From Kingdonia uniflora (Eukaryota; Streptophyta; Magnoliopsida; Ranunculales; Circaeasteraceae), in assembly GCA_014058105.1 (NCBI GenBank), contig JACGCM010001594.1, forward strand, positions 124,001 to 188,000: DNA of 64,000 nucleotides, in the 5' to 3' direction. The first letter of the stretch is position 1; every line of letters begins with the position of its first letter. Positions 10,551 to 62,559 of this stretch are shown here, one piece after another. The notes beneath the pieces were generated by a model, which was given only the letters and a program-made list of their open reading frames with translations, was not told where the DNA came from and searched no databases. A program made the position numbers and the translations under genes.

Positions 10551-10589
10551 TTAATGAACATGTTTTTCCTCTGAACTTTGTATCCTGTC

Positions 10590-17652: not shown

Positions 17653-17660
17653 TTTATATA
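17653..17660 (-). promoter_or_regulatory. TATA box of element A small antisense ORF
   Basis: The minus strand reads ggttatataaagggtact, with the inner edge 72 nt from the ATG at 17581. C and D have ggttatataaata at the same distance. Confidence 0.65.
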
Positions 17661-22665: not shown

Positions 22666-23097
22666 ATGGTGAAGACCTAGAGAATGGTTCATGAAGAGAG
22701 GATCTCAGTTGAGATGCAGAAGTTGAAGTTGAGATATTTTGGTGATCCGTCTTTGGAGATGCCTACCCCCGTGTCCATTTTATCGACGTATCAAGGTATG
22801 TCATAAGAAGAAGCGACTGAAGCTGAGGAAGATTTTAACTGTATGTGGATATTTCATCACGTTGTCTCGATAGGCGAGCAATGTTGGAGGTGTCTCAACA
22901 TCCTTGTGGAGGACAAGGTTAAGGAGACAGATGCGGGGGTTAGCGTAACTGCAGGGCAGTTACGCCTATGTATTACATGGGATTGGATTTTACGGTCGGG
23001 CCTTCTTTATCTCTGGCAATTCAGTGGAGGTGGTGGCTATAAAGGAAGCAGCGGTATAAGTGGTGAAGGGAGACGAAAAATGGAAGTCTGCTTCTGA
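22666..23097 (+). pseudogene. Element C small antisense ORF, broken
   Basis: Antisense to the element. ATG at 22666 reads MVKT, a TAG, then RMVHEERISVEMQKLKLRYF, STYQGMS, a TAA, then an open reading with IFHHVVSIGEQCWRCLNIL and EDKVKETDAGVSVTAGQL. The family stop after QLC is lost here, so the frame runs on to 23095-23097. It aligns with A, D and, more distantly, B. Function unknown. The conserved Lys/aromatic-Gly block and the Trp suggest a folded small protein (inference). Confidence 0.6.
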
Positions 23098-24553: not shown

Positions 24554-24739
24554 GAAGAAGCAAAAAAATAAATAGAAAAGACAGGTAACTTTTGATTTTG
24601 CCTCTTGTACAAATAGCAGGAAAGTTTGTCTGTGTGTAAGTATTGATTCATCATGAGTGTGGGGAGGTCAGAGGGACATATAGAAAAGAGAGATGAAAAT
24701 AGATTAATATATAGGGCAAAGGGCAATGATGGGAAAACA

Positions 24740-27700
24740 TTTTAATCGAAAAGGTACAAGACGTCTGACATTGATTATAGAGGGGATGCCTCGGTTCCAA
24801 AACCATGGACGGCTCGAGCGAGGCACCATAACTGCCAGCAGTTAGAGAAAGAAAATATAGGCAATGTTTCATCTTTGTCATTCAAAGGTTTCTCAACTTC
24901 TAAAAACCTGAAGAGCAGTGAGAGAGGAAAGAGGAAAAATAGTAGAGAATTTCATGAGAAATTAATTGAGAGTGATTTACAGTCAAAGCGTGAGAGAGTT
25001 GCAGAGACTGAGTCACGAAGGTGGTTATACAGTAGCGTTATGAGGGAAAGATTTAGCGTTATGTCAGATTCACACTCTAACATAAAAGGTTAGTAGAGGA
25101 TTTGTAATATTTTGAACGTGTTGCTTTTGAAAAATCATTTTTTGTGGTAGGCAAATCTAAAAATTACCATTGCCAGCAATCTATAAAAGCTTGTTTGATA
25201 TATTTGTAAACATGATATGTGAAAGATATATGTATATGGGTGATGCATGTGTAAAAGATAATAATGGATACCTAGACCTGCATGCACGTCGAACGTGAGG
25301 AGTGTTGTGTAGGATCAAACCTTCATCTATAGATTATTAGTTGATATGGAGACTTTTCCTGTTAATAAGGAGTCAACCTATGGTCGATCGGTTGAGTCCG
25401 AGACTATAATGTATGATAGGGAGGAAGAAGTAGGGGTTATTCAATTTCTAGATTTACCTAGAAAGTTAGTATCCTATCCTCCGAATTCTGATATTTTCAA
25501 AGAGTTTTGTAAAACCAAGACTACTGTAGGGGAAAGATGGGGTAATTGTGTAAAACATACCGATATGCATTTTAGGAGTTGTATTATAGCAACTGGAGAT
25601 GAACACTTTTGTTTGTTGGTTAATTTGGGGAAGGAGAAATGAGATGATTTAGACAAATTGATCTCCTTGGAGTACTTTGATGGAAACATCTAAAGTGACC
25701 TGGCAGAGGGTTTTTTGTGTTGCCTATCTCAGTTGGAGTACTGGTTGAGTCTTCCCCTTAGCAATTTGGTGAAAGGGATTATAAACATGATCAGGACATG
25801 TCCCGTTCAGTTGAACGGGAACATGTGGGAGGTAATAAACGTTTGTGAATTTTTGAATAAGTTGTGGGAGGAGGATAAGACTGAGAGGATGATATCTTTT
25901 GAGGATGTCTTATAGTTTTATGGGGTAAAAACTTTTCTGCAAGTGGAGGGGCATATTATTTCACGAGTTTGACTCAGTCTCGTTTCTTTGATCTGAAGTC
26001 AGCAGGTCGAACGTGAAATGATAATATAATATGGGTGAAGGGTGATTGCTTTCAGAGAGATGATGAAGAACCCATGGAATTTCTGTGTAGAATTGTGAAA
26101 CAATGTAAGTATAACAATATGTAATGTATAAGATTAGTATGTTGAAATTGTATATTGCACTGCTGATGAAATGTGTTGCTCATTGACAAGTCCTTACTTA
26201 AAGGTGACAAGGAAGGAGTCTATATTGGGCATTGTTGCTCAGGAAGGGACCGAGCTCGAGGCTATATTGAAAGAACTCGGTATTAGTAGATCGAAACGTG
26301 TTAACAGCCGGTCTGAGAAAGTTCAAAAGTCTTAAACAACAAGGCTAATTACGGGTGCTGATGACAACAAAAATAGGGGAACTGATGGGGAGAGGCGAGT
26401 GAACTTGTCCAAGGCCTCTGGAGTAGACTTCGCGGTGTGCTGGAGTCTACTTCGTCGAGCAAGCTTGCTCAGGCATTTCCAAAGATGAAGATGCTGAAGC
26501 GTGGTTTGACCTCTGGAACTCTATACAGAAAGTGGTGAGGTTGAAGGAGGGACGAAAAAGCGAAGGGTTGAGCCTTCTGAAATGATAGGGGTGAAGGTCG
26601 TAGAGGATCGACCTGTTATAGATGACGATTCGAAAGAGGCGGAGGAAAGGGCGAGGGTTGCAGTTCTCAATTGGGAGGAGGAGATGAGAAAAATGGTAAG
26701 TTCATTTACTTGAATATGTGATTTTGAATGTTCATTTGCTTTAATTTGTAGGCTACTCGTTTGATGAAGGGGATATGCCTCAGAGTTGAGGAGGAGAAAG
26801 TTGAGCTGAAGAAGGCAAAAGTTGAGCTTGAGAAGAAGGTAGCTCGACTGAAAGCTAACTTGATTAAGGAGAGAAAGTGGCTGGAGGTCCTAAATGTTTC
26901 TCAGAAGGTGGAGATTAATGATCTATCGGGGGAAGAGAGAAGGAATATGGAAGGGGTATTCCGAAGATGAGGTGAATGCCATCATGGCGGACACCTATGT
27001 TGAGGAAGAGGAAGATAATGTGGTGGAAGATGTTGCTATTGGAGTGGTGGGCAGGTTGGATGGTGTCTCTCCCCAAATGGTGCGAGACAACTAGGGTGAT
27101 GACAATGAGCGTCCTGAAGAAGAAAATGAGAAGGTAGGGTAGAATGTTGACTCTGTGATTGAATGAATGTTTTGTAATGTTATAATCTAATGGAATATTG
27201 TTTGTTGGATAGAATTCTGTAGGTTAAGATGTTCATGTAAACCTTGTTGTAGGAACTTAAGGAAATGCACCTCATAATAAAAGATTTAGAGATTGAGCTC
27301 GCTAAGGAGTGAGATGCCTCAGCAACCCTGCTGTCTTCGCAAATGGAGCTACAGGTTAGAAAAGTGTAAGAAATATTTGACTTGTATGCTTCATTAGTCT
27401 AAAGCTACAAAGTAAAAAATAGAGTGTAGAGACAGACCAAAAACTTGCTATCACTTTAGGAGCTATGGCACTCAATGGTGTATAGAAAATATCAAAATAT
27501 TGACAAATAAAAATATAGATAATGTGTACATTAGAATTCGAATTATGTGTTATTGTTCATCCGACTAGGATTGTACTTCGACCTTAAGTTTAGAAGTTAT
27601 TTCACACAGTAGATGTCAAAAAATAGAAATTTTGTTAGAAATGAGATGTATGTATTGAGTGAATATCCTGAATCAAACTTGATATATTGAATCTGTGATG

Positions 27701-29198
27701 GCTAGGTTAAATTATAGTCAGCTCGCTTGATCGAAGATGAGATACGCCATTGTAACCATGAATTTGTGGCAGAGTTTAATAGAATGAGGGAGGAAAATGA
27801 AGATAGATTAACATGTAAAGGTACACTTCAAGTTTGTTGAGGCAACCCAAACTGCTGACGATGTACTCGGAAGATCAAGGAGAAGGATGCCAAAATTAGT
27901 AAAGGGTAAAAATAGCTCACGGAGATGAAAGAAAAGGCAACGAAGCTCAAAAACAAGAATGATGTGCTGTTGGTAAAGAGTAGGGATGCTGATATGGCTC
28001 GATATTGTATAAAAGCTTTAGAAAAGTCAGAGAAAGGGTTATGCCGATCTACGGTAAGTTTAAAGGATCAAATGATCAGTAAAATGGTTGAAGAAGAAAA
28101 TGGTTGGGAAAGATAGCGAGCTGATGAAAACTCGAGATGACCTATCTACCTCTGAAGTTGTGTTTAAGCAGTTGAATATAGCCTTACCTGCTAAGGATAT
28201 AGAGTTTCGGACGGCGCAAAGGAAGTATGATGAGTTGAATGAGAGGGTGGCGCAATTAAAGACTGATTTGGCTCAGGCCAATTTGGGTGCCAGAAACACC
28301 GAGGCTAAAGAATGCTCGTGAAAGAATAAAAGTGACGTCAAGAACTCCCTTGTTCCAAGGGATGTAGTTAGCCTATCAGCTCAAATAAGAGACCAGATGG
28401 GAAATATAGCTCGAATTCAAGGTCATGTGCAAAAAGGAAATGAGCGGTTAAGGGAGTGCCAAAGTTAGTTGGACGGTGCTCTTACCAAAGAATAGGAGTT
28501 AGAGCGGGTTATTAAGGGTAAGGATATTTTGATAAAGAAGAAAGATGAGTTATTAAGGAAATCTCTTGCCGGGGAAGATTTAAATAGGGAGCTTGAGTAA
28601 CTTCGTACTCAGGTAGTAGATTTGAGGGCGATAAACCAGACTGAGCCAGCTAAAACTGCTGAGAAGGTGAGGGAGAACATCAAATTCACTTCCCGCATAG
28701 ATAGTCAAATAAAATGGCAAGATGCACGGTATAATAGGTTAAAAGAGTACCTAAGAATGGCAAGAAAGAATTTCTCTAGGATGGTTGTGCCACAAGCTCT
28801 GAACTCAGAGATGTTAATGGCAGTGATTGCCTATTTTGTTGATAAAATTAGAAATCTCGAGTTAGAGAGGAATACCTAGCACGACTGTTTGTCGGGTAAA
28901 GGATACATCTACAGAGTTGAAGTAAATCGAGGAAATTGTATGAACTCCATGGAAACGGAGTTAGGTCCTCGACCTGCTGAAATGGCAGAGCATGGCAGGG
29001 TGCATCTGCAGAGTAGAAATAGATCGAGGAAACTGTATGAACTCCATGGAAATAGAGTTAGGTCCTCGACCTGCTGAATTGGTAGAGCATGGCAGGGTCA
29101 CTGTAGCTACCCGAGCTTGAGATTTTATGGCTGATCATCCTCCTATTGTAGGGGAAAGCATGGCTGACCTCCCAACAAGAAAAAAAAATTCTCTATAG
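24740..29198 (+). pseudogene. Element C large antisense gene, six exons inferred, broken
   Basis: Inferred exons: about 24750-25088, 25341-26104, about 26195-26695, 26752-27133, 27253-27354, 27718-29198. Introns start GT and end AG, and joining exon 1 to exon 2 keeps the frame (into MET at 25346). Exon 1 has WLYSSVMRERF. Exon 2 holds the N-terminal domain: YPPNSDIFKEFCKTK, LEYWLSLPLSNLVKGI, CPVQLNGNMWEVINVCEFLN. Exon 3 is basic and acidic. Exons 4-6 are Glu/Lys-rich heptads (coiled coil). The tail has a 97-bp duplication (about 28926-29098). Several stops and frame changes occur. The best family guess is the plant putative gypsy-type transposon (Transposase_28-like) protein. Cellular role unknown. 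Confidence 0.65.
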
Positions 29199-29219
29199 TT
29201 GTTGTAAATGTGATCTGAA

Positions 29220-29880
29220 AAAGTATCTGTCGCAGACATATTGAAAGATGAAAGCTAGTTTCACATATGCTTTATCTTATGTCTGGTAGAGTTCTTTGAT
29301 TGAAAACTAGTATTACCTTCATTTTAATCACAGAGTAGTAATGTCGTAGCCATATTGAGTGGGATGAAAACTAGTTTTACCTTTGCTTTATCTTATGTCT
29401 GGTAGAGTTCCTCGATTGAAAACTAGTATTACCTTTGTTTTAATCTCGAAGTAGTAATGTCGCAACCATATTAAGGTAGATGAAAGCTAGTTTTACCTTC
29501 ACTTTATCTTATGTCTAGTAGAGTTCCTCGATTGAAAATTAGTATTGCCTTTGTTTCAATCTCGGAGTATAATGTCGCAGCCATATTGAGGTAGATGAAA
29601 GCTAGTTTTACCTTTACTTTATCTTATGTCTGGTAGAGTTCCTCGATTGAAAACTAGTATTACCTTTGTTTTAATCTCGGAATATAATGTTATAGCCATA
29701 TTAAGTATGAAGAAAAAACTAGTTTTACCTTTGCTTTATCTTATGTCTGGTAGAGTTCCTCGATTGAAAGCTAGTATTACCTTTGTTGTAATCTTGGAGT
29801 ATGTATAGAGTTGATCAAAGCGAGTATTATCCTTGCTTTAATCGGAATAAAGGTTGATTAAAAGCTAGTATTTACCTTTG
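29220..29880 (-). repeat. Element C 3' tandem repeats, ~116-bp unit, 5 or more copies
   Basis: tctggtagagttcctcgatt recurs about every 116 bp (near 29282, 29398, 29514, 29631, 29747), each followed by gaaaactagtattacctttg. The array lies between the ends of pol (minus) and the antisense gene (plus). Confidence 0.85.
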
Positions 29881-30009: not shown

Positions 30010-31417
30010 AATTTTAAATTAAGTGGTGAGGGACTTAACGATAGTACCGTTTCGGTCACCTAGCATTCCAAGGATTTGAGATGTAAACTCCCTCTTCTGT
30101 CATGAGGTAATATGATCCCAGGCATGTAAGACCAGTGATAAGGAATGGACCCTCCAAGTTTTCTGCTAGTTTACTGGCATGTGGTTATTTTCTGTGCTGA
30201 GGGACTTCTCTGAGGATGAGATCATTAATTTAGAAAGTATGGTTTCTGGCACTCATCTGTTATATAAACTGGCCAGCATATGGTAATATCGACCAAGGTT
30301 AGCAATGGTTCGTTCCCTGGTCTCATCGATCCAATTGAGGTTGCAGGTCAATTTAAACTCATTTTCTTCATTAGTTAGCTCGCGATCTTTGACTAGATGA
30401 TGGTATTCAGATGGAATGGCGGCTTTGGTCCCATAGGCAAGAAGGAATGTGGTGCAGCCGATTGATTGACGAGGAGTAATACGATATGCCCATAAGATGT
30501 AAAGATATTCTCGAACCCATTTCCCTTTTTTCTGTGAATGAAGGCTTTTTTGGAGTCCATCCACGATTGCCTTGTTGGTAATTTTTGCTTAGCCATTGTC
30601 GTGAAGGTAGTAGGGTGGATAGTGAGTGGATGATATTATGTTTGTTAAGGATGGTTATGACTTTTTCTCCAACGAATTGTGGCCCATTATCGATATAAAT
30701 TAGGTAGAGGCATCCAAACAGAGAGATGATATGTTCCCAGATAAAAGAGATGACCTCTTCTTCTCTGGTTCGATAAAATGGAATTACCTCAACCTATTTT
30801 GTAAAATAATATGTAGCTATGAGTAGGTATCAGTGGTTACCTGGAGAATTAGGAAATTCACAAACAAGGTCGAGTGCCCATCTTTTGAATGGCCAAAATA
30901 CCTTGATTGCATGTAGTTCGAGCGCTGGAGCACGTATTATTTGTCCATGCAGTTAACATGTATCACATTTGAGTGAGTACTCTTCTGCTTGCTTGTGCAT
31001 GCCTGGTCAGAATACTCCTTGTACAATAGCTCTGCTTACGAGTGATTGACCTGTGGCGTGGGAGCTATAAGTCCCTTTATGTAAATCGAGGAGCATCTCG
31101 TCCACTTTCTTTCTAGAGAGGTACATTAGGTAAGTCTTCGTCACTGAACGGTGATATAAATAACCGTTTTGATTTGTGTAGCGCTTTGAGTTGTCGATCA
31201 GCTGCCGGCGCTCCTTTTGATCAGCTGGAAGGGGTCCTTTGTATTTGTTATTGATACCAAGGTAGGCTAAGAAGGGCTTTCGCCAATCATCGTCTTCTCC
31301 TTTATCGCCCCCAGTGCTGATCGTACATACATAAATGCGATCAATGTTGGGGGTTGAAATTACTTCGATCTGGAGATATCGAGCTTCTGTTCCCAAGACC
31401 CCAGCTAGATATGCCAA
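30010..31417 (-). pseudogene. Element C integrase, broken
   Basis: Minus strand: the spacer ARYLQIEVISTPNIDRIYVC leads to a zinc finger LHKGTYSSH ... KCDTC, then ALDLVCEFPNSPGN (first Asp) and IDNGPQFVGEK (second Asp). The third catalytic block is frame-shifted. It then reads VDGLQKSLHSQKKGKWVREY, ENEFKLTCNLNWIDETRERT and a damaged GKL-type C-terminus near 30160. It aligns with A and E along its whole length. Multiple stops. Confidence 0.8.
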
Positions 31418-31780
31418 AGAATCGGCATGTTTGTTTGCACCTCGAGGAAGATAATCGAGAGTTGCTTTCGGTTATTTACTCATCCTATCTGCAACAAGGG
31501 CTTCATATTCAATCATCTTGCCATTCTTCTTGTATTGTTCAGAGTAATGGTGGACAATGAATAGTTAATCTGTGTAAACTTAGAGTTCTCGAACACCGAG
31601 CTCAAGTACGAGGTTGAGTTCATAAATGAGAGCTTCATATTCGAAATGACCCTTTTCAGAATGACGTTGTTCGAACTTCATGACGTTGTTTGAACATGAT
31701 ATTATGAGTTCATAAATGAGGTACCGTTTTAGAATGACGTTGTTTGAACATGATATCATGTTCAAACTTCCAATCCTCTC
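31418..31780 (-). pseudogene. Element C RNase H region: deletion scar with reshuffled fragments
   Basis: Only the tail of the second RNase H is recognisable (YEALIYELNLVLELGV, EYEALVADRMSK, near 31450-31640). Between it and the RT (31780) the first RNase H is reduced to a patchwork: a piece coding for the EHDI...FEQRHS motif occurs two to three times, ctcatttatgaactc occurs twice, and a 26-bp perfect palindrome lies at 31742-31767. Confidence 0.65.
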
Positions 31781-32700
31781 AAAATAGGTTTTAAAATCCT
31801 AAAAAGCTGCTTCGCATTCTTATGTCCATTGGACCTCTGCATTTTACTGAACATTTTCTTATTTGGTACAACTGTAGAGTAGTAAGAACGGCTAATAACA
31901 GTGGTCTAAAGATTTTGAAATAAATTGATTAATAGCGGTAATCTTGCTGGTAAGTTTCAGTACGTCTTTCGTCGTATTTGGAGATGACATGTTGAGGAGA
32001 GTCCAAATTTGATATGGATCGGCCTTAATCCTTTTCTTACTGATGAGATGGCCAAGAAATTAACCTGAAAGTACTCTAAATTGACACTTATCATGATTGA
32101 GATGTATCCTATAAGGTCAAAGAATGCTAAATATTGTGTTGAGATCTGTAATGTGGTTGGTTGACTGTATGCTCTTGCACAAGAGATCGTCAATCTAAAC
32201 TTCCACGTCTTTCCTAAGATGTGCTTTGAACATAGTAGTTATAAATTGTTGATAAGTCGTGCCTTCATTTTTGAGTCTAAAGGGCATGACTTTGTTGTAG
32301 TAAAGTCCTCTTTCAGTGATGAAAGTGGTCTTTTCTTGATCTTCTTCCAAGAGTAAAATTTGATTGTACCCAGAAGCAGCTTCTATCATAGATAGGAGTT
32401 CGTGACCTGCAGTAGAATCAAGAATTTGATGGATATTAGGGAGAGGGAAACTGTCCTTTGGAGCGTGTTTACTTAGATCTGGGAAATCTACGCAAATTAG
32501 GACTTTTTCATTCTTCTTTGGGACAACAACGATGTTGGATATCCAATCTGGATATTTGGCTTCTCAAATGAATCCCACTTTGATCAATTCTCAATCTCCA
32601 TGTTAACTTCTTCTTGAAGTCAAGGTGATAGTCGCCGTTGTTTATGTTTGACTGTCATGGCGTTTATGTTGATGGCCAATTTGTGACACGCCTTGGCCAG
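31781..32700 (-). pseudogene. Element C reverse transcriptase, broken at the active site
   Basis: Minus strand: AASGYNQILLLEEDQEKTTF, ITERGLYYNKVMPFRLKNEG and MFKAHLRKDVEV, then a stop codon exactly where relatives have Tyr of YIDD, then IDDLLCKS (about 32185). Frame changes occur upstream in the palm and downstream in the thumb. It aligns with A 3113-3859. Confidence 0.8.
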
Positions 32701-32839
32701 ATCGACCCCAAGCGTCTCTTTGAAATTCCATGTAAATACGTCTCAATTTACTTGAAGAACTAAATGATAGCATCCTTATCATGCTGGATTAACTTGGTAC
32801 CTACGAAAGTACCTCTGCTAGGTCCATCAATATTAACAT

Positions 32840-33340
32840 ATTCTGTTGGCTCTTTTGTTGAAGGCTGATCATCAAGGTAATCAGCTTTCTGTAATTGCTA
32901 TACAGCGTATCTATCTGAGGTATCTAGAATTGCTGAGACGGTGTTTTTGCATTCCCGAGAATGCTTTTGACGACCCTTTATTTCATAAAACCATCATTGT
33001 GTTTGAAGTGGAGTGCTTGATGATAGGTGGAAGCGATTGCTTCCATGCTTTGAATCCAGCAGCGGCCCATAATTCCAAGATAATGAGATTTGGCATTGAT
33101 TACGTAGAATATGACATCGATGGTGGTTGGTCTTGTGGTAATAGGTAAGATGATCTTGCCTACTCACTACTTTTTAGAACCATTAAATCCACTGATATCA
33201 ATATCGCTTAGAATAACTTGATCGGCCAATCCCATTTGGTCGATAGTGCTCTAAAAAAGAATCTCAATACTGCTTCTAGTATCAATCATCATTGTGTGCA
33301 TGAAAAACTTCTTCATCTAGAGCATTATGACTAATGCATC
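32840..33340 (-). pseudogene. Element C protease, active-site motif changed
   Basis: Minus strand: the catalytic motif reads DTRSSIEILF (about 33245-33290) where A has DTGSG, so the essential Gly after Asp-Thr is Arg. The downstream domain (QMGLADQVILSDIDISGFNG, then the segment before the RT) aligns with A. A stop and frame changes are present. Confidence 0.7.
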
Positions 33341-33399
33341 ATGATGTGGAAATTTGACATGACTAATGTCATAATCTTTGAATGAGATCCCAAGCCGAC

Positions 33400-34990
33400 G
33401 ATTGCTCGACCCAGGTAGAACTTGGCCTCTTTGTCTTGAGATGTAAGATTGCAGCATTCTGACAGTCTTCTACACTTGAATTGGTAAGAGTTGGTGATTT
33501 GATGGATTTCGAACATGTTGTTGTGGTGCATATGGTAGATATGCTACTCTTCAGCTTGATCTTCGACCTGGATGACTTCTAGCTACTTTTTATAGCTGCC
33601 ATCCTTATATAATTGTAGGTCAAAAATGTATTCGAACATCCGTTCCTCCTTGAAAATGAATTCTAGCTACCTCTGTAAAGTAGTGTAGTTGTTAGTAGAA
33701 TGATGGTTTACCTTATGATGCATGCAGTACGGGAGATTCTTGATTGATTTCAATGGTTGAGAGAGACGGTATAGCTTATCCTTGGAGAGGATTAGAAAAA
33801 TTATGGATATTCGAGCATTCATTCTTGGGAGGACCGGTTTGGGTAATGAGCCACCTTTTTGAGGGTTACCAATATTTCCCTTATAGCGCTTTTGATCACC
33901 CTGAACCTCCTTTGGTTCAGTACTTTGATATTTGGATGGACCTTTTATGGTTAGGACAGATTTAGTAGATTTATACCTTTTAGGCATCATCTTTTCTAGG
34001 TCGACGTAACTATTAACCTCTGTGATCACATCTTTCAAGGTCACAGGTTTTTTGAAGAAGAGGTGTTCTTTGGCCTTGCAGTCGAGTTGGAGTGTGTTGG
34101 TAAAAGCAGTTACAGATGTTTTCTGATTGAGATTGTCTATTTTACGCACAAGCTCCAAAAACTTCTTCGTAAAAGCCTCGAGCTTCTTTCTGTATGATTG
34201 TTCAAGACTGATAAGAGAATATAAATTCTCCTCTTTATCACTATTATGAGCATATGACTTGATGAATTATTTCTACAGCTAGTCGAATGTGTTTATGGAG
34301 TCTTCAGGTAAAGAGTAGAACCACCGGAGCGGTTCTTCCTGCAGACTTATTGTGAACAAACGGTAAAGGATGTGGTTGAGGTTGGAATATAACTTCAATG
34401 AATTACGGTACTGTTTAATGCGCTCCTTTTGATCGGTACCTTTATATTTGTAATTTTTATGAGTATGGAAATCTTTCGGTATTTCCATATCAAAGAGTTC
34501 TTTGGCAATTTGACTCCCTTGTAACTTGGTAAGGTCGTCCGTAGTGCCCAGAACTTGTGCTTCGATTAACTCCTTGATACACTGATCCATATGCTCTTGT
34601 AGAACATATTGACGTGTCAATTGAGTGGCTTGATGTGGAGGATGAGGATTGTGAGTACCGGTACCTTCACTCAAATGATTACGTACTAGAACTCGAGGTT
34701 GAGGTCATTGTTCTTCCTCCTGATGTTTGGACAATCAGTGACCTCGGCTGACTTGAAACTAAACTTCACCACCTAAATGAATGAACTGTTGAGGTTCGTG
34801 CTGATTATTTCTGTTGAGGCTTTGAGCTCCTTCTCACAGAGCTCTTGGTTAAGAGTTAATTGACATTTGAGCTCACTGCGCTTCTCTGTTTCGGCGTTGA
34901 GATACGCCTGTAGCTCTGTAAGTTATTCTTGCTAAACTGAAAGATCAAGCTGGATTCCAGTTGCTGGTCATCTGGAAGTTACCATGATTG
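33400..34990 (-). pseudogene. gag: Element C gag, broken
   Basis: Minus strand: coil-like leader (34800-34990), then VLGTTDDLTKLQGSQIAKEL, LRWFYSLPEDSINTFD and KKLEAFTKKFLELVRKIDNL. The zinc knuckle reads YCMHHKVNHHSTNNY, so its last Cys is Tyr. It aligns with A gag throughout, including the basic segment TKSVLTIKGPS. Stops lie near 34275 and 33666. Confidence 0.8.
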
Positions 34991-35062: not shown

Positions 35063-35672
35063 TATAATGGCCTAATTCTATAAGCTTGAGATGGCTTAGA
35101 ATTAGCTCTTACACCAATGTTCCTGTGATAAAATCTAATATGAAATAAGAAATAACACAGGTAATTTAACACCTCTGAATAGGTAAGAAACCACGACCTC
35201 GGGTTGAGGGTTTTTGTAATAGTAACTTTTATTGCTTGAGGCTGATATCTTATTACAAGTGATATCTCGACTTAGAAATACTTGATCTTGTAAATAAGAA
35301 GCTTTATGTTTTGAGAATCTAGAAAATATAGTTTTCTTAGTAATTTCTTGTATATTATTCTGGTCCCTGTCTCTTCTGGAACTTTTTCTTTATATAGGCC
35401 TTCTCCGCAGTTCTTTATCGTGCTGAAGTACATTCTCCTAACAATGTGGTTAGTGGCATTTGACTGAGTAACTGTTGAGTTCGTGAGAGACTGGTGTCTT
35501 TGATTTGTTCATGTTTATCTATTTGAGCTCGGCCCAGGCTTTTCATCAGTTTGTGGGGGTTGGTGTTAATGTTGACTGCTGATGTCACGTGTAGATCGTG
35601 TGAGTCAGATATAGAGGTATTTTGAACTGGAATTAGCTCAAATTGGGTTAGATCGAGGGATAGGTCCCTACA
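35063..35672 (-). repeat. Element C 5' LTR
   Basis: 610 bp. On the minus strand tgtagggacc ... ggccattata. The TATA box is the complement of 35388-35396. CTTAG follows at 35673-35677. Confidence 0.9.
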
Positions 35673-51028: not shown

Positions 51029-51651
51029 TATAATGGCCAAATTCCGTAAGATTGAAATGGCTTGGAATTTGATATCACACCAATGAACCTGCGAAAATTT
51101 TCTAATAGAAAGCAAGAAATGACAGAGGTGATTTTATTGTGGAAAACCTCTGAATAGGTAAAAAAAACTACGACCTCGATTGGAAGATTTTTGTAAAATC
51201 ATCTTTATTGCTTGAGGCGGATATCTTATTACAAGTGATCTCTAGATTTAGAAATGCTTGAACCTTGTAACTAAGAAGTTTAAATGTTTATGAGAATCTA
51301 GAACAAGTAGTTTTGTTGGTAATTTCTCGTATAACTTTTTGGTCCCTGTCTCTTCTGGAACTTCTTCTTTATATAGGCCTTCTTCCCAGTTCTTCATCGT
51401 GCGGGAGCACGTTCTCTAAATAATGTGGTTAGTGGCAGTTGACTGAGTAACTGACGAGTTTGTGAGAAACAGTTGTCTTTAACTGGTTAAGGTTTTTTGG
51501 TTTGAGTTCGACCCATGTTCTTCACCAGTTCATGGAGTAGGTTGAAATTTTGACTGGAGAAGCCATGTTAAAAATGCCTAAGTCTGAGATAGAGGTAATT
51601 TGAACTGGCGATAGCCCAATTTTAGGTAAGATCGAGGGATAGGTCCCTAGA
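51029..51651 (-). repeat. Element D 3' LTR
   Basis: 623 bp. Minus strand ends ggccattata against Athila sequence. The other end is mutated (ccctaga for ccctaca) against the polypurine tract. A conserved tatata TATA lies near 51370. Confidence 0.85.
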
Positions 51652-51990: not shown

Positions 51991-52293
51991 ATGGTGAAGT
52001 CTTGGAGGATGGTCCTCGAAGAGAGGATTGCTTCTTAAATGCAGAGGTTGAAGTTGAAGTATTTTGGCAACCAATCCTTGGAGATGTCGATACCTGCTCC
52101 TGTTCCTCCGACTTATCAAGGTGTATCGGAAGATGAAACGGCTGAAGTTGAGTATAAATTTTACTGCAGTTGGAGGTTTCATGTCGTCGTCTTGACAGGC
52201 GAGGAACATTGGGCTTGTCTCCGTTCTCTTACGAAGGACAAGGTTGGGGGGATATATGTAGGGATAGGCATAACTTCAGGGCAGTTATGCTGA
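51991..52293 (+). pseudogene. Element D small antisense ORF, one nonsense codon
   Basis: ATG at 51991 reads MVKSWRMVLEERIAS, TAA, then an open 84-codon reading from MQRLKLKYFG to ITSGQLC-stop at 52291-52293: 101 codons in all, the same length as A. Motifs KLKYFGNQSLEM, PPTYQGVS, WRFHVVVLTGEEHWACL and TKDKVGG. If the inner Met (52039) is the true start the protein is intact at 84 residues. In A and C the first part also carries stops, at other codons. Family unknown. Confidence 0.6.
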
Positions 52294-53277
52294 TGACTTG
52301 TATTGAAATGGATTCTAAGGTCAGGCCCTCTTCATCTCTACCAACTTTGCGAGGGTGGTGGTTATAAGGGAGGCGGTGATGGTAGTGGAGGAGTAGGATG
52401 GGAAGTGGAAGTCTGCTTCAGCATTTCTATCACTATTTTACGCTAAGAAGATCTTCAGTTTGAAGAGTTTGGTCCATAATTGAGTCTTCTGCTTGCATAG
52501 TTCCATTTGAAGCTCGACTAAACTTCGACCAAACTCATGTAAGGGAAGCTTTTTGTTGTTTCCAATTTTTGCTTTGTATCAGGGTAAAAAATTATTGAAG
52601 TAGAACAAACTGAAGGACTTGTTCTTGGGGTGCTTGAAAGATCTATTTTCTGTAAAGCACTCTAAAAACTTATTATCTGTAAAGTACCTGATTTCATAGT
52701 AATTGTAAGACTTGATATCTGTAAAAGTATTTAATCTCTGAGTACTTTAAAAGACTTGTTATCTATAAATGTATCTATAATCTAATTCAAAATGAATAAT
52801 ACTTGTTATCCAAACATTGTGTTGATATAGAATAGAATGTCTCTGGAATCGAGCTAAGAATAATGTTATGTGTTTGCCAAGATACTGATAAAATGATATG
52901 TATGACATGAAAGTTATTATTATCATAATCGAACTGTTAGAAATATGTTTTCATGTAGATACCATAAGGTCGACCTGGGGATGGATAAAAATATAGAGGA
53001 AATGAAGTTATACAAATTTTGGAATGGTAGGTCGATCTGTGACAGTTTGTTTGGAGCAATCAGGTTGATATAAATAGGACAAAATAATATAGCTCGATAG
53101 AAAGAGATTTGTTCAGATATAACTTCTACCAAGATTCTATGGTTTCTGTTATGAGATAATAGGAGAACATCCCGAGCTGCGCAGAATATATGGCCAGATA
53201 GGGTATTAAATAATGGGGGGATTGAGAAGGGATAAATAGGTGGAAGGATAGAAAAATATGGTGGACTCGTTCTGAGA
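52294..53277. other. Element D spacer between antisense ORFs
   Basis: Equivalent to C 23098-23989. Contains acttgttatctgtaaagtac-type short repeats (about 52640-52770). No gene recognised. Confidence 0.5.
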
Positions 53278-53680
53278 GAATCCATTACGCCGCTGAGGGG
53301 CGATTGGCTATTAAGATAGCCAAAGTGCATGAACGTATTTTTGGGTTATAGGATTATGATGCTGAATTGCCAGTGAAGGAGGTGAATGTTGAGGATTTGG
53401 ATATGATTGGGATAAAGCAGGAATATGAACGTTGTTTTTACGAAGAGATGTTATGAAAAGTAATTGTGGACCCAGAAGTTCCAAAGGAAGTAGTGAGATT
53501 GCTTGCTGTGGAGGAGATCGAGTCTGAAGATGTGATCATTGCTAGAGGATATCTGATCGGATGTTGTCGCCTAGGTTATCAAGATTGTTTTAGGTGTAAT
53601 TATATGCAAAGTGCTATCATAAATAAATGTAATTTTTTTAATTTAACGGAAAAGACGAAAGTCAAATTGATCCTCTAAAG
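53278..53680 (+). pseudogene. Element D anonymous antisense ORF with Cys-rich end
   Basis: The reading RIHYAAEGRLAIKIAKVHER, DYDAELPVKEVNVEDL, EYERCFYEEM, DPEVPKEVVRLLAVEEIESE and GCCRLGYQDCFRCNYM aligns with C 23991-24310. Two in-frame stops. The Cys cluster C-C-x6-C-x2-C is striking but not a pattern I can name. The frame continues to 53676-53678 in D but stops directly after in C, so the end is uncertain. Confidence 0.5.
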
Positions 53681-53752: not shown

Positions 53753-53775
53753 TGACGTCACTAGTACTATAAGTA
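53753..53775 (+). promoter_or_regulatory. TGACGTCA element plus TATAAGTA, candidate promoter of the large antisense gene (element D)
   Basis: tgacgtca (53753-53760) and tataagta (53768-53775) with the same 15-nt offset as in C. The first conserved coding exon begins about 180 bp downstream. Confidence 0.5.
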
Positions 53776-53959
53776 TAAGAAACAAGAACAGAAAAAAATA
53801 GGAGCTTCTAGCTTTGCTTTTTATGTAAAACTGCAAAAATCTGATATCGTGTGTGTGTGAGTCATCAAGAGTGTGGGAAGGTCAGAGAAAGATTTGGAAA
53901 CAAGAGAGAAAAATAGATTAAAACATGAAGGGAGGGGCAATGATGGAAAGACAGCTTTT

Positions 53960-56900
53960 TATTGAGAAGGTACAAGACGTCTGACATGGATAGTAGAAAG
54001 AACGCCTCGGTTCCAAAACTGAGGACGACTTATGCGTGGCACAATAATTGCCAGCCATTAGAGAGAGAAAGAATAAATAGTACTTCTTTTTCATCATTCA
54101 AATATTTTTCAACGTCTGAAAACTTGGAGAGCACAGAGAGAGAAAGGGCGAAAAAATTATAGGGGATTTGGTAAGGATTTATTTGAGAGTGATCAACAGT
54201 CGAAAAGAGTTGCAGGAACTGAATCACGCATGTGGCTATACAGCAGCGTTTTGAGGGAAGGATTTGGCGCTGCTTTGGATTCTCATTTTGACACAGAAGG
54301 TTAGTAGGTTAGTAGAGACGTGAGCTGCATGTTTGTAATTTTTTTTTACAAATCGTAATCTATTTTAAGAAAATCTTTAAAAAATCACTATTTATTGTAA
54401 TCTACAAAATTTAAAATATATATAGAATATATGAAAGATATTTTGTATGTGCATGATTGATGTGTATGAGATAATGATAGATACCTGAATCTGTATGCAG
54501 GTCGAACGTGAGAGGTATTTGTGTAGAATCAAACCTTTGCCTGAGGAATTGTAGTTGAGATGAATAGTTTACCTGTTAATGAGGTGTCGACCTCTGGTCT
54601 GACGGCAGAGTCTAAAATTGAAATGTCTGACAGTAAGGTTGAAGTTGGGTTTAAACAATTTCCAGGTTTCCCTGGAAAATTAGTGACCTATCCTCCCTGT
54701 TCGGACGCATTTAAAGAGTTTTGTAAAGCCAAGGCTGCTGTATGAGGGACATGGGGTAACTGCGTAGAATGCGTCGGTAGGCTATTTAGGGTGTGTACTG
54801 TAGCGATGGAGGAAGAGTATTTTTATTTGTTGGCCAACTTGGAGGAGGAGAAACGAGATAGGGGTATAGATGAATTGACCTCGCTGGAATATTTAAATGA
54901 GAGTATTCGAAGTGACATTTCATAGGGCTTTTTGTATTACCTGTCACAATTGGAGTACGGGTTGAGTCTTCCCCTTACCAATTTGGCAAAAGGGATTATG
55001 AATAAGATTGGGGCATGTCCTGTTCAATTGAATGGGAACATGTGGGAGGTAATAAGTATTTGTGACCATCTGAATGAGAAATGGGAGAATGAGGGGAAAG
55101 TGAGAAGGATATCCCCTGAGGATGTATTACAGTTTTATGGGGTGAAGAATTATCACGCCAGTGGTGGGGCATATTTATTTGCGAGCGCAAATCGGCCTCG
55201 TTTCTTCGATCTAAACTCAACAGGTCGAGCTTGGAACGATAGCGTAATATGGGTGAAGGGTAATTACCATCAGAGAGATGATAAAGAACCTTTGGATCTT
55301 CTGTTTAGAACTGCAAAACAAAGTAAGTATAACAATGTATAGCGTATAATATTGATATGTTTGAACTGTATGATCTTTTGTTGATAATAAAAATGTAGTG
55401 CATGGCAGGCCCGAAGTCCTAGGTGGAGAGGAAAGATTTTTTATTGGACGAAGTTGCGGAGGAAGAGGTTGAGCTCGAATTTGAGTTGGAACAACTTGGC
55501 CTTAGCAGAAAGAAACGGGTTGGGAACAAGTCCAAAAAGGTTCAGAAATCTCAATCGACCAAGCTGATGGCGGGTGTTGATGATGGAAAGAAGAAAGGAA
55601 CTGGTGGGGAAGGGCGAATGAACTTGCCCAAGATCCCGGGAATAGATAGTTTGGTTCAGTCGGAGTCTATTACCTCGAGTTAATTAGCTTGAATGTTTCT
55701 AAAAAAGTAGATGTTGAAGCGCCTATCGGCCTCTGGTACCACTGGAAGTGGTGAGGTCGACGAAAATGAAAAAAAATGAGAAGGATTGAACCTTTTGGAA
55801 ACTCGGGGGAGAAGGTCGTTGAAGAGCTACCTACTGTTGAGGACGATCTTAAAGAGGTGGAAGAAAGGGCCAGGCTGGCGGCTCTTCACGGGAAAGTGGA
55901 CATGGGCAAGATGGTTGGTCTTAACACTCGATTATGTAAAATATACTTATGTATTGCATTTCGAGCTCAGGTTGAGGTAGAATTGTGCTTTGCAGGTTGC
56001 ACATTTGGTGAGGGGGAATAGGCTCGGAGTTGAAGAGAAGAAATCTGAGCTGAAGAAGGGGAAGATCAAGCTTGAAAAGAAGGTAGCTCGAGCGAAGGCT
56101 GATGCTCTCAAGGATATAAAAAAGCCTGGAGCCCCTAAAGGCTTTCCACGTAGTGGCGATTGGCCATCAACAAGCAGAGGCGATAGCAAACCTGGAGAAG
56201 GTGGTAGCGGAGCGCAAAAGACTCGGGCACCACCTTATGCTGAAGGGGTATTCTGGGGATGAGGTAGATGCTATTAAGGTAGACACCTATGTCGAGGAGG
56301 GAGATAATGAAGAGGTTACGATTGGAGTTGTTGATGGGTTGGATGGTGTCGCCCGCCAGACGGTGCTAGACAATCAAGAGGATGTCACCGAGCTCCCGAA
56401 GGAGGAGCATGAGAAGGTGGGGTAAAGAAATGACTTTGTATGAATATTTTGGAAGTATTCTGTAAATTTGTTGGATTGTGTATATTATAATAGATTTTTG
56501 TAGGCTGAGTTTCTTTTTTTTGTAACCCTTTTGTAGGCACTTAGAGAAATGAGTCTCAAAATAAAAGATTTAGAGACCAAGCTTGCAAGGAAAAGAAAGA
56601 TCTCCACATCCTCGCTGTCTTCGCAAGTGGAGATGCAGGTTAGATCAGAATAATACTTTTGATTTGTATGCTATATTGACATAAAGCTACCAAGTAAATA
56701 AGACAACATAGAACGTAGAGGCAGACCAAAAACTTGATATCAGTTTTAGGAAAATGATACTAAAATAGTGCATAGGAAAAATCAAAGTTTTAGACAAAGT
56801 AGCATATAGAGAACATGTACCTTAGACCTTGAAATATGTCATGTAGTATCCATCTAAGATCGTACTTCGACCTTTAAGTCTAGAAGTAGTTGCACACAGT

Positions 56901-58383
56901 AGATGTTAAAAATTAGATATCTTGTTAGAAATGAGATATTTATATGTATGCTGATGGGGTATTCTGAATTGAACTGTATATAATATATTTATATTGTGCA
57001 GGTCAAGATGTATTCAGCTCACTCGCGAGAAGATGAGGCACTCTAATGTATCCAAGAATTTGCAGAGGAGTTAGATAGGGTGAGGGATACGAATGAGGAT
57101 AGAGAAGACCAGCAGGTAAAGGTGCACTTCAAGTTTGTTGAGTCAACCGAGACTATTGTCGACCTCACTCGTAAGATTGAGGATAAGGATGTCGAAATTG
57201 ATAAGGGGCTAAAAGAGCTTATAGAGATAAAAGAGTACGCAGCGAAGCTTCAAAGTCAGATTGACACACTGATGATAAAGAGTAGGTATGCTGACATGGC
57301 TCAATACCGTATTCAAGCACTAGAAAGATCGGAGAGACAATTTTGAGCTGATTATCAAAATTATAGAAGCGAACTGAAGTGACTGAAAAAGAAAATGATT
57401 AAAAAAGATAACGAGCTGAAGATAGCTCGTGAAGATCTATCGGCTCCAGAAGCTGCAGTCGAGCATTTGCATACAGCCCTACCCACCAAGGATATGGAGT
57501 TTTAGGCAGTACAACAGAAGTGTGATGAGTTAAATGAGAGGGTGACACGATTGAAGACCGAATTCCCTCAAGCCATTGCGCGTGTCAGGAACGTCGAGGC
57601 TGGGGAGCGCTCGAGGAGGAGTAGAAATGATGTTAAGGTTCCTCTAGTCCAAGGGGATGTAGTTAGCCTGTCAAGTCAAATTAGGGAGATGGAAGGTAAC
57701 GTAGCTCAAATTTAAGGGCATGTACAGAAAGGGAATATAAACTTAAGGGAGTGGCAACATAATTTGGATGCTGCTCTTGTTAGGGAAAAAGTCTTGGAAG
57801 GGGAAATCAGGTCGAAGAAGATTCTGATGAAGAAGAAAGATGATATGTTAAAGGTCACTTCGGCCAGGGAAGAGTTGAATACAGAAATAGAGAAACTTTG
57901 CGCACAGGTGGCAGACTTAGAGGCCATTAATCAGGCAGAATCAGCTAAAGCCGTCAAAAAGTTGGAAGAGAGTATAGCTTTTGATGTTCTTACAGAAATA
58001 GAAATGGCACATCAGAAGAGACTGTATGTGAGGTTGGAGCCATGCCTCGAGAAGGTGAGGTCTTTTCGAAGATAGTTGTATCTCATGTATCACGCACAGA
58101 CCTGTTAAAGTCGATCGTTGCTTATTTTGTTGAAGAAGTAAAAATACTTGAGTTAGAATGAGATACCTTGTTCAAGAGTCTGTTAGACAAGGGTTATATT
58201 TGTAGATTTGATATAAATTGAGGGAACTGCATGGCCTCCATGGAAATGAATTTTGGCCCTCGATCTGCTGATCTGATAGAGAGGGGCAGGGTTGCTGTAA
58301 CTCGCGAACTAAAGTCATATCAACCTCCTACTATAGGGGAAAGGACAGCTGACATTCCAACAGCAGAAAAGAATCCAATGTAG
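53960..58383 (+). pseudogene. Element D large antisense gene, six exons inferred, broken
   Basis: Inferred exons: about 53955-54299, 54555-55322, 55409-55913, 55996-56416, 56537-56638, 57002-58383. Exon 1: RRYKTSDMDSRKNASVPK, HNNCQPLERE, WLYSSVLREGF. Exon 2: MNSLPVNEVSTSG, YPPCSDAFKEFCKAK, LEYGLSLPLTNLAKGI, CPVQLNGNMWEVISICDHLN, NRPRFFDLNSTGRAW, a region resembling the plant putative gypsy-type transposon domain. Exon 3: FELEQLGLSRKKRVGNKSKK, basic. Exons 4-6: coiled coil. Exon 1 to 2 and 2 to 3 junctions are phase 1, the rest phase 0, and each joins in frame. Defects: stops in exons 2, 3 and 6 and frame changes in exons 1, 3 and 4. Not a host gene: it lies between a 3' LTR with polypurine tract and the element's repeats. 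Confidence 0.65.
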
Positions 58384-58453: not shown

Positions 58454-59042
58454 TGTAGGGACCAGATTTTGTAAAGCTCAAAATAGCTTGAAATCGATCC
58501 TTACACCAAGAACTACTATGCCAAGAATTAAATAAGAGATAATACTTAACACATGGGATTTAGCGTGGAAAACCTGTGAATAGGTAAAAACTACGACCTC
58601 GAGTGGAGGATTTTGTGAAAGTAGTATTATTGCTTGAGAGAGTAAGAGAATCTGATTATAAGAGTTAATCTAAGAAAAAATAGCTAGATACCAGATAATT
58701 ATATGTATAGAATTGTCTGTTGAACGTCCTGTTTCCTTAGGAGCTCTACCCTTTTATAGACCATGCTCTCAGCTTGACATCGTACTTGAAGCAGATCTCC
58801 TGAAAGTGGGAGTCATGGGTACTTGAGTGTGTAACTGCAAGCTCGTGAGAGACAGGTGTATGTTGACTTGTTTAACTTACATCTATTATGGACGACCCAC
58901 GTTCTGCTTGAGTTCGTGGTCGATGTTTAACTGCTGACGTGTCTATTTATGCGTGAGTCTGGTACTGGATAAGATTGAATCTTCTGAAGCACGAGGCATA
59001 GATGAGATCGAATGTCCGCAGCTCAAGGGATAAGTCCCTACA
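58454..59042 (-). repeat. Element E 3' LTR
   Basis: 589 bp. Minus strand tgtagggact ... ggtccctaca. The polypurine tract complement follows at 59043. D sequence agtat lies just before 58454 and would be the target duplication if repeated beyond the window. Confidence 0.8.
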
Positions 59043-59219
59043 ATCGCCCCCTCGCAACTGAAGTCACGTGTGACTTTAGTTAAGAATAAACCCTAACCTG
59101 GACCCTTTTGATGACGTAAGCGAGAGTATGAAAACCGGAACGTCTGTATTGATGAGTGTACTATCATTATGATGCGTGAGTGTTATGGGTAGACTTGTGG
59201 TCGTATTTTAAGGTTAAAG

Positions 59220-61539
59220 CTGGTCTCCTTGAGGAACAGTGTTGAGCTAAAGCTCGAGAGAAGATTATTGTTGTTGTGGATGATGATTTTAAGAAGGTTA
59301 GTAAATAGTTGGTTTTGTCGAGCTATTTTGTTGCTCAAGCTGGCTTATTTCTTTTTGCAGTTTGCTTGTGCTCTGAGGGGGGTTCAGCTTGGTCTCCAGG
59401 ATAGGTCGATTGAGTTGGAAATGAGGATCTTCCAGCTTGAGGGAGAGAAAAGCCAGTTTGAAGAGAAACTGACTCGGGAGAGGGGAGTTTTTCAGTTGAA
59501 GCTGGAGAAAGAAAGGAAAGCTGCTGCCCTAAAGCTGAAGGAAGTTAGGGCCAAAAGTGTAGCTGAAGCGGAGCGATTGGTTACCGCGTCTGCTACTTCT
59601 CGGAACAACCTTGCAGGGAAACTCTACCAGCTGAGGTATACAAAGGCGGAGATTTTTGCATTTGGCGAAGGGAATTATGAGGAGAAGGAAATTGTGGATG
59701 AAGAGGAGGCTGAGGAAATGGAGGATGGTCTGAATATTGCTGAAAAGACCACTGCCGATAATCAGGAAACTATTGATCAGGTAGGATGATCGTGTAATGT
59801 AACATTTGTTGTGAAACATGAACTCGAGCTTTGTAATATTTTACTGCTGTTTGATGCCAAAAACGTTTTGCTTATGAAACTCCGTATTGTAGGAGATAGC
59901 AAGCTCACGCCTCAGAGTTGCGGACTTAGAGGGCCTGCTTGAAGTGGAGAAAAAATCCTCTTGTAAGTTTATTCTAGTTCAGGATGTTTGTGTATGTACA
60001 CTCTGTCTTGCAACCAAAACTTATTTCTTGGTCGGTAGGCCAATGAGGCATTGGCTGTCTCAAACTTGCTCTGTTCTGCAAGTTTGTCAGTATGCTTCTG
60101 TCGATCTGTTTCCCAATTAGGTACTGATGTTGTGAGTCCCTACTAACTGTTATGCAGAAAGAGCTAGACATTGCTAAAGAGAGAGAAGAACAGACTCTTT
60201 TGTATAATGCTGAGTATACAGACGAATATGAGGCTTTGATCTCTTAGTATGAAGATCGATTGAATGATAATGTGAAGCTTTCTTTAAAGTTCGAAGAAGC
60301 TAAGAGACAAGCCGAGGATAAGAATGCAACAATTTTGAGCAGGGATTTGGCTTTGAACCAACTTACCAGGGAACTTGCTGAGTTGAAGGAAAAGGCTACG
60401 TCAGGTTCTTGGAACGAGCTTGAGTTAGCCAAATACCGTATTAGAGCGTTAAATGACGAGATATCTGATATGAAATATAACATTCGTGCTCTGAACGAGC
60501 AGTTGTTGAAGAGAGAGATCGACCTGGATACTGCGCGAACTAACTTGGCTATGTCTGAGGCCGATTTTGAAAAATTGAGTAGTAGTATTATGGGAAAAGA
60601 TCTAGAATTGCTTAACTCTGCACAAATAAGTGATAGTTTGATTGCAAGGTTAGATCGTTTGAAGGCTGATTTACATCGTTTAAAAGGGAGAGAGGCTCAG
60701 AGCAGGGATGATTTAGGAGAGGTTCAAGCCAATAACAAAAGTTTGGTGGACGAGTTGGCCCATGCTCGTGGAAACGTGAGGAGGGCTGTGCAACATGATA
60801 AGGAGATGAAGGAAAGAATTAATTAACTCTGTGCTCGAATTTCTAAATTGGAGCGGAAATTACGTATACGTGAAATAAGGTATCAAAATAATCTCAAATT
60901 TGAATTGGATAAAAGGGATGGTGAAATTGCTTCTAGTGAGGGGAGTCGAGAGATGAAGGAATTTCTTTGTCGAAAAGAAGAGTTAGTAGAGAATATGCGT
61001 ATTGATCTCACAAATTCTTGGCAGAAGTCGATAGATCTTACAAGGCAGATGAGTGAACGTATTGATCAATTAACAGCAGAACTGGCTGAACCGAAAGCTT
61101 GTCGCTTGAAGGATAACAAGTGCGCTGATTTTACTCACCAATCCTTTAAGGAACTAGTAGCTCATGAACAAGAAAAATGTGATGGTGAAGCTTTGCACCA
61201 ATGGAAATTAAGCGCATTGGTTACATTTTTTGTTAAGGAAATAAAATTCCTGCAGGTTGAGAGAGATTTGATGCAAGATTGCTTCTCTGGGAGGACTTGT
61301 GTATGTAAACTCGATATCTTGAGCATAGATCCAATTGGGGTTATGGATCGTGGTATTGGGACCACGACGGCTGAACAGATAGCTCGAGGGAGAGAAATTA
61401 TTGCTGAACGAGCTCCATAATATATGGCATCCAAGACTGAAATAGGAGAAGCTCAAGTGCAGTCTCACCTACTCCTATTGTGGGAGGAAGGTCGACTGCT
61501 CTCCCATCAAGAAAATTCAGCAGAATTAAAAAGAAATAG
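59220..61539 (+). pseudogene. Element E large antisense gene, 5' part deleted, two to three lesions in the rest
   Basis: Exon 3 end (to 59296), exon 4 (59361-59780), exon 5 (59893-59962) and exon 6 (from 60158), separated by GT-AG introns of 64, 112 and 195 bp. Exon 4: FACALRGVQLGLQDRSIELE and a heptad region. Exon 6 is about 420 codons of coiled coil with only TAG at 60245 and TAA at 60824. The frame closes at 61420, with a further family-like tail to 61539. Exon 5 is 70 bp, not a multiple of three, against 102 in C and D. The small ORF, anonymous ORF and N-terminal domain are missing, deleted between about 59160 and 59220. Confidence 0.65.
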
Positions 61540-61769
61540 ACTTGAATTCAGATAACGAGTGCCTTTTGTAATTAGCAGATGTTGATGCTTCAGTGCTCGA
61601 TGTAGGCCTTTGAGAGGAGCGTTGTAATTTGAAATGTTGATATGAGAAACTAATATTTCCACACCTGCAGTAGATGTTATTCTCTGGTTTGACCCATTGA
61701 ATTAGAAGAAGTCCATGGGTGTAGAAGTAAGTATTATTTGTGCTTAAACCCTTGGACTTTAGGGAGGCT

Positions 61770-62390
61770 TAACGGCACCGAGCAAGTTTTTTCCTCACTC
61801 GTGCTTTAGGCGTGTTATCTTCAGGCTAAGAGGTTTGTTATGGCCCCTACCTTCGGATGTATGAGTATCCTCAGGAGTTAGGCTGGTATTATATATGCCA
61901 TTACCAATGTTGGATGTTGGAGCTTATCGGCAGTGAGCAAGTTTTTTTCTCACTCGTGCTTTAGGCTTGTTATCTTTAGGCTAAGAGGTTTGTTATGGCC
62001 CCCGCCTTCGGATGTATGAGTATCCTCAGGAGTTAGGCTAGTATTATCTATGCCATTACCAATGTTAGATGCTGGAGCTTATCGGCAGCGAGCAAGTTTT
62101 TTCCTCACTTGTGCTTTAGACTTATTATCTTCAGGCTAAGAGGTTCGTTATGGCCCCCGGCTTCGGATGTATGAGTATCCTCAAGAGTTAGGCTAGTATT
62201 ATCTATGCCCTTACCAATGTTGGATGTTGGAGCTTATCGGCAGCGAGCAAGTTTTTTCCTCACTCGTGCTTTAGGCTTGTTATCTTCAGGCTGTGAGGTT
62301 CGTTATGGCCCCCGCCTTCGGATGTATGAGTATCATCAGAAGTTAGGCTAGTATTATATATGCCATTACCAATGTTGGATGTTGTTTACC
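61770..62390 (-). repeat. Element E 3' tandem repeats, 155-bp unit, 4 copies
   Basis: gagcaagttttttcctcact starts at 61780, 61935, 62090 and 62245: three intervals of exactly 155 bp. Each unit also has ggcccccgccttcggatgta. The first copy is the most diverged. Confidence 0.9.
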
Positions 62391-62559
62391 TTTAGGGATC
62401 GAGCTAGTATAAACTGTGTTTTTATCCTTGGGTGGAGATGGATGAAGTAGAACTGTATTACAGGGATTCTTGTGATAAAAAAGAGATTTCATTGATTGAA
62501 AAGAGTTTGTACATACATTGGATGTGAAATCTCGAGGTGGATTGAATGTTCCTGAGCAA

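Follow-up and report, generated by a model that had tools for sequence, protein, structure and literature searches.

How could a retrotransposon keep a gene with five introns? Reverse transcription removes sense introns. The question is raised by a stretch of 64,000 nucleotides from Kingdonia uniflora (order Ranunculales; contig JACGCM010001594.1, positions 124,001 to 188,000), called the window here. It holds related long terminal repeat (LTR) elements that we label A, C, D and E. An earlier note read conserved blocks in C, D and E as an intron-bearing gene on the strand opposite to the elements' own genes. We argue this is very probably right. The elements appear to carry an accessory antisense gene that sits between pol and the 3' LTR. 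Five of its six exons read as coding and the first is probably so; its five introns are of the GT-AG type, and the host is predicted to splice them out. Alignments of 34 D-family and 9 C-family copies support this reading through open frames, codon constraint and shared borders. In both families the exons form one open joined frame with constraint at codon positions 1 and 2; the introns are rich in AT and have a transversion rate close to that of third positions.

In D the gene spans 53986-58383 on the plus strand, and its six coding blocks are separated by five gaps with GT..AG borders. Its parts are as follows, with splice-site counts taken over the other copies.

53768-53773 (+): TATAAG, a TATA-like box and putative core promoter for the antisense gene; present in 32 of 35 copies having the stretch, which is absent in 8 of 43
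53986-54299 (+): exon 1, starting in the D family with ATG at 53986; neither family has a majority stop over 99 codon columns
54300-54554 (+): intron 1, phase 1; GT 26/27, AG 27/29
54555-55322 (+): exon 2, TRP28-like region; open frame, PF04195 profile match below cutoff
55323-55408 (+): intron 2, phase 1; GT 31/33, AG 28/33
55409-55913 (+): exon 3; open frame in both families
55914-55995 (+): intron 3, phase 0; GT 30/33, AG 31/33; 82 nucleotides in D, so that retention is a frame shift
55996-56416 (+): exon 4; open frame in both families
56417-56536 (+): intron 4, phase 0; GT 31/31, AG 28/33
56537-56638 (+): exon 5; open frame in both families, codon-position test not significant on its own
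56639-57001 (+): intron 5, phase 0; GT 24/31, AG 27/32
57002-58383 (+): exon 6, predicted long coiled coil; stop TAG at 58381-58383

The intron lengths in D are 255, 86, 82, 120 and 363 nucleotides. The phases (1, 1, 0, 0, 0) make every join consistent with a single frame, as had been claimed for D. When the five intervals were slid by 1-200 nucleotides either way, 388 of 400 shifts had no GT..AG interval at all and the maximum was two of five. The exons have a GC content of 40-51% and the introns 28-37%. It must be noted that D itself carries stops and frame shifts within its exons. One copy therefore proves little, so other copies were fetched.

The assembly searched has 1.003 gigabases in 2,693 contigs. 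A first look gave 3,213 candidates for the D probe (exon 6), 3,683 for the C probe and 660 for the E probe, and 40 were scored for each. The 39 other D copies fetched are the best-scoring candidates. Five were dropped as broken (L003, L013, L025, L037, L039), and L028 (77% identical) was aligned and kept outside the family counts, which cover D and 33 copies (n=34). The C family counts cover C and 8 fetched copies (n=9), out of 39 others listed for that probe.

In the D family the spliced frame has a majority stop in 1 of 1,137 columns, compared with 76 of 1,131 and 90 of 1,128 in the other frames. The one shared-stop column is at 55708, in a part of exon 3 near which copies show short indels relative to D. 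For the C family the spliced frame gives 0 of 1,107, the other two 85 of 1,100 and 100 of 1,099. These counts omit columns adjoining D's frame shifts, and the C count omits more of exon 3; a fuller exon 3 in the C family has 0 shared stops in 161. Reading through the gaps meets shared stops in introns 1, 2, 4 and 5. For intron 3 the D family shows no shared stop (0 of 23), yet the intron's 82 nucleotides in D would shift the frame. The frame is bounded at both ends. Shared stops lie directly upstream of the start position in both families, and ATG stands at 53986 in 23 of the 29 D-family copies with letters there. As for the terminal stop, of the copies with a complete codon at that place, 24 of 27 in the D family and 8 of 8 in the C family have it.

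The splice sites are mostly retained as well. Over the 33 D-family copies, 283 of 315 scored splice dinucleotides are intact, while background retention of D's other dinucleotides is 0.735 for GT and 0.771 for AG; the gap may partly reflect dinucleotides derived in D itself. C copies keep 75 of 87, the weakest being the acceptors of intron 2 (AG 5/8) and intron 4 (AG 5/9). Among the 43 aligned copies other than D, introns are present in 204 of 204 scorable intron-by-copy cases, with 11 cases unscorable and the five broken copies unscored. This fits the earlier proposal that antisense introns survive retrotransposition. When the fetched loci were probed for joined exons, 35 rows crossed a junction by at least 10 nucleotides, and 34 of these do not have 25 nucleotides on both sides. 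The other is L039 at junction 2, with 25 nucleotides on both sides. We rejected it as an intron loss: its deletion (55298-55381) has ends that are not splice sites and is imprecise, covering part of exon 2 and intron 2. Over the 34 and 9 copies, then, borders are mostly GT..AG, exons are open and under codon-position constraint, and gaps are closed or out of frame. Neither of the outcomes on DNA that the earlier note took as counting against it is seen. The features expected of spliceosomal introns on DNA (GT-AG borders, phase-consistent joins, AT-rich introns and constraint confined to exons) are all present, and are weakest for exons 1 and 5. At the exon 1 donor of D (54300-54315) there is also an 8-nucleotide direct duplication, GTTAGTAG, absent from other aligned copies having the stretch.

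One can imagine a simpler test, in which introns should be less similar than exons. We rejected it: when only C and D are compared, identity is 75% in intron 5 and 67% in exon 6. C's own LTRs differ by 15%, so a large share of the changes probably arose after insertion; shared stops and fixed differences were used instead. Fixed differences between the D and C families occur at 0.144, 0.139 and 0.282 at codon positions 1, 2 and 3, and at 0.214 in introns. Fisher tests separate positions 1 and 2 from position 3 (2.5e-19) and from introns (7.8e-6). With transversions only, the positions stand at 0.060, 0.059 and 0.099 and the introns at 0.104, and position 3 does not differ from introns (p=0.75). 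Exon by exon, the contrast reaches significance in exons 2, 3, 4 and 6. Variants that D-family copies share are for the most part transitions, with little signal in them. The ratio of nonsynonymous to synonymous change (dN/dS) between families is 0.35 over all exons. The earlier note had suggested comparing this ratio exon by exon with the introns over more copies; single exons give 0.30-0.49, and all introns read as codons give 0.70-0.91. The wrong frames of all exons give 0.75 and 0.90. We take these differences to indicate that purifying selection acted between the families. Within families the ratio is 0.50 for D (200 sampled pairs) and 0.49 for C.

The orientation of the gene is best judged in C, which is bounded by LTRs at 21712-22327 and 35065-35672 that are 85% identical in a self-comparison with blastn. 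The elements of the window have these parts.

51029-51649 (-): LTR of element D; blastn to both C LTRs, same orientation; the 3' LTR if D shares C's order
30065-34814 (-): pol region of element C, opposite to the gene; reverse transcriptase (PF00078) at an E value of 3e-14, PF00665 at 5e-7, below cutoff
24720-29200 (+): homologous gene in element C, from sequence comparison with D
59156-61549 (+): truncated homologous gene in element E; introns 59297-59360 and 59781-59892, third intron altered by deletion
12813-13220 (-): diverged exon-2-like piece in element A; tblastn 27% identity, 5e-13; 71% to model P0034 at 12861-13160

The gene of C (plus strand) begins near the left LTR and heads toward pol (minus strand), so the order is LTR, gene, reverse transcriptase and integrase, LTR. 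The integrase core (PF00665) also lies on the minus strand and is just under its cutoff. The gene is thus inside the LTRs and antisense to the element's own genes, as had been claimed, and a position between pol and the 3' LTR, antisense to gag-pol, is found in C. Judged by the orientation of pol similarity, A and E are arranged as C is. A is an inverted relative at 1-18528 (self-comparison) and E lies to the right of D. The pol end of D is outside the window, and an LTR-like fragment (58531-58638) follows its gene. Further exons of A were not recognised with Kingdonia gene models. From this layout the host elements are likely LTR retrotransposons of the Tat/Retand type. Tandem repeats lie between the antisense gene and pol, with units of 155 base pairs beside E (61612-62531) and of about 115 beside C (29228-29802).

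The earlier note also described five GT..AG gaps at the same places in C and D. The five gaps are there and all are GT..AG in D, but the acceptor of intron 2 in C is AA. Nor is intron 5 of C 363 nucleotides long; by motif positions it is 351 (27355-27705). E was said to repeat the last three introns. This holds for introns 3 and 4, which are at homologous places and in phase 0, and fails for the third gap of 195 base pairs. We rejected that gap as the ancestral intron 5, its GTAAGT being at a deletion edge. For the E family 5 of 39 other copies listed for its probe were fetched, as short stretches, and one of them, L053, loses colinearity across exons 3-5. The end of exon 5 and its donor, lost in the window's E, are present in four of the five. 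In the four colinear copies intron 3 has GT in 4 and AG in 3, and intron 4 has both in all 4. The intron 5 donor is GT in 2 of 4 (GTTAGAT, as in most D copies) and the acceptor is AG in 4 of 5. E represents a third family in which the predicted introns 3-5 occupy homologous positions.

GenBank gene models join many of the same pieces. D-family models that hold both pieces join them at the junction in 19 of 24 cases for exons 2 and 3, 10 of 11 for exons 3 and 4, 3 of 7 for exons 4 and 5 and 1 of 2 for exons 5 and 6. E-family models do so in 24 of 63 cases (exons 3 and 4), 66 of 74 (exons 4 and 5) and, within 6 residues, 41 of 73 (exons 5 and 6). Only 1 of the 73 is within 1 residue, because the window's E lost the end of exon 5. 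The last join reads ...AELQ|KELDVAREREEQ in the E family and ...AELQ|VELDASR in the D family. Model P0023 fuses an exon 2 piece to pentatricopeptide repeats.

Several points weigh against our reading. Splicing is predicted from DNA alone. The copies are the best matches to D and C with broken ones dropped, which favours complete genes, and each of the 33 other D copies carries 10-22 in-frame stops and is decayed. With transitions included, fewer differences are seen in introns than at third positions (0.214 versus 0.282, p=0.0016). Intron 1 alone, read as codons, gives a dN/dS of 0.64-0.80; together with the within-family ratio of 0.50 this means the low ratio is partly composition or mutation bias. 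Exon 1 is the weakest part. Neither it nor exon 5 is significant alone for codon position (p=0.23 and 0.10), and one wrong frame of exon 1 gives 0.47 where the true frame gives 0.49, so exon 1 rests on its open frame and not on dN/dS. D's ATG is found in 0 of 8 C-family copies, 7 of which have ATT, and C-like models such as P0006 begin in exon 2. The coding status of exon 1 is less sure for this reason. The C-family start differs from that of D and is perhaps in exon 2, and exon 1 there may be partly untranslated. Exons 1 and 2 are joined at the exact D junction in 0 of 9 models; P0004 and P0032, read by eye, carry 3 extra residues there, and other models skip parts. GenBank models may be pure predictions, and some skip exon parts, so they lend weak support. 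The E copies have a GC donor at intron 5 in 2 of 4 and a broken intron 3 acceptor in 1 of 4.

It is worth considering what else the blocks could be. They might be separate antisense open reading frames (ORFs) with their own starts, and the gaps non-coding spacers. An ORF Finder survey lists 104 antisense ORFs in 63 clusters (Vicient 2025, PMC11963269), and the joins are predicted here from DNA. Spacers do not explain why five of five gaps are GT..AG where 400 slid controls give 0-2, nor why the phases fit one frame. Exon 5 has only 34 codons and makes no gene alone, one shared stop closes the frame in both families, and the E family retains the same junctions at low protein identity. We consider separate ORFs unlikely. 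A different scenario is a host gene with introns, recently captured by one element and decaying unused. Host genes normally have introns, and on general grounds an antisense capture would keep them. However, the gene is in at least three diverged families, with C, D, E and the piece in A all within this window, its intron positions are homologous in three families, and purifying selection is indicated between families. The matches listed in three protein searches (34 of 34 for D exon 2, the best 120 of 208 and the best 120 of 361) are all repeated Kingdonia uniflora models, and neither a distinct host homologue nor a relative in another plant is among them. Recent capture is very unlikely.

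The open frames could also come from composition or from constraint on the sense strand, such as RNA packaging or a sense ORF, and not from an antisense protein. Opposite strands do share constraint, and within families dN/dS stays below 1 even for copies that should be evolving neutrally. The codon-position signal nevertheless follows the plus-strand frame over exons 2, 3, 4 and 6, and the wrong frames, which are not sense-strand frames as such, have the higher ratios given above and are full of shared stops. We regard this explanation as extremely improbable.

If the blocks are exons of one antisense gene, its persistence may have a simple route. The gene would likely be transcribed from its own promoter, predicted inside the element, and the host spliceosome would join the six exons into one messenger RNA. 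Donors and acceptors would be readable only on the antisense transcript, so the genomic RNA would keep the introns as plain sequence. Reverse transcription would then pass the antisense introns on, whereas introns on the sense strand would be lost in that cycle. The introns would be kept through reverse transcription because their splice sites are readable only on the antisense transcript.

The predicted protein has about 1,160 residues, with a putative TRP28-like part (exon 2) and a modelled coiled-coil tail (exons 4-6). Exon 2 of D matches Transposase_28 (PF04195) at 17.5 bits (E value 0.0049), where the cutoff is 26.2. Typed domain pieces reach 13-17 bits in 4 of 6 cases, below the cutoff, and gene models match at an E value of 1 or less in 9 of 28 and 2 of 19 cases, the best being 0.012 and none above the cutoff. 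A PF04195 search of the whole genome found no match anywhere, with controls equally silent. Structure predictions of E-family models have a tail of long helices and an N-terminal part mostly with a predicted local distance difference test score (pLDDT) below 70. By analogy with the nuclear GENE23 protein of Grande, the protein may have a nuclear role, regulating or helping the element.

Antisense accessory genes of this type (aORF-3R) are already known from Retand elements, described as plain ORFs. According to passages of the survey cited above, every Retand cluster has antisense ORFs, and TRP28 is present in 97%. RIRE2, Grande gene23 and Retand ORF4 likewise have antisense TRP28 ORFs between pol and the 3' LTR in the passages describing them (PMC11963269, PMC7264820). 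Those passages also give a TRP28 region (sometimes with an Smc-like domain), nearby tandem repeats (in about half) and a long internal region. The Kingdonia gene differs from them in its six exons and five introns and in a TRP28 match below the Pfam cutoff. The word "intron" occurs 0 times in the available text of PMC11963269, and a passage of PMC7264820 (Vicient and Casacuberta 2020) calls for a look at antisense and spliced transcripts. No report of introns in these antisense genes stood among the open-literature records listed on the subject, judged by titles and the beginnings of abstracts. Plant LTR elements are generally without introns according to passages of a review (PMC12786077), with Ogre and EVADE as exceptions. 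These resemble our case in having introns within plant LTR retrotransposons, but they make subgenomic RNAs by alternative splicing, and the review's passages name no antisense intron gene. Outside plants, HBZ of human T-cell leukemia virus type 1 is a protein gene antisense in a retroelement (PMC1459196, in part). Its transcript is spliced, where splicing is predicted here. HBZ starts in the 3' LTR and has two splice variants in the passages at hand, unlike five introns and a predicted internal promoter, and no shared sequence is claimed. HeT-A of Drosophila has a spliced antisense RNA (PMC3235214), again predicted here; the passage discusses it as a possible HeT-A regulator and names no multi-exon protein gene.

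We tentatively suggest, as a possibility somewhat short of an even chance, that Retand-type elements ancestrally carry this multi-intron gene as a module kept by selection, that the several antisense ORFs found per element across flowering plants are the exons of this one spliced gene, and that antisense placement lets a split gene survive reverse transcription. If true, a five-intron gene kept by selection opposite the element's own genes would demonstrate that split genes are protected by antisense placement. It would also account for the broken or multiple look that antisense ORFs in these elements can have, and would provide a full-length protein for testing TRP28 function. A further caution is that an ORF finder detects such a gene only in pieces.

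More antisense coding sequence may lie upstream of exon 1 in D.

53226-53606 (+): open segment of 127 codons, possible further antisense exon or exons or a small ORF; frame 0 without a majority stop in D and 22 copies

This segment is matched by models such as P0018, and some gene models fuse it to exon 1. Nearer the LTR, a short stretch at 51991-52242 (+) and at 22666-22914 (+) matches the N-terminus of model P0001 and is a possible third antisense coding piece.

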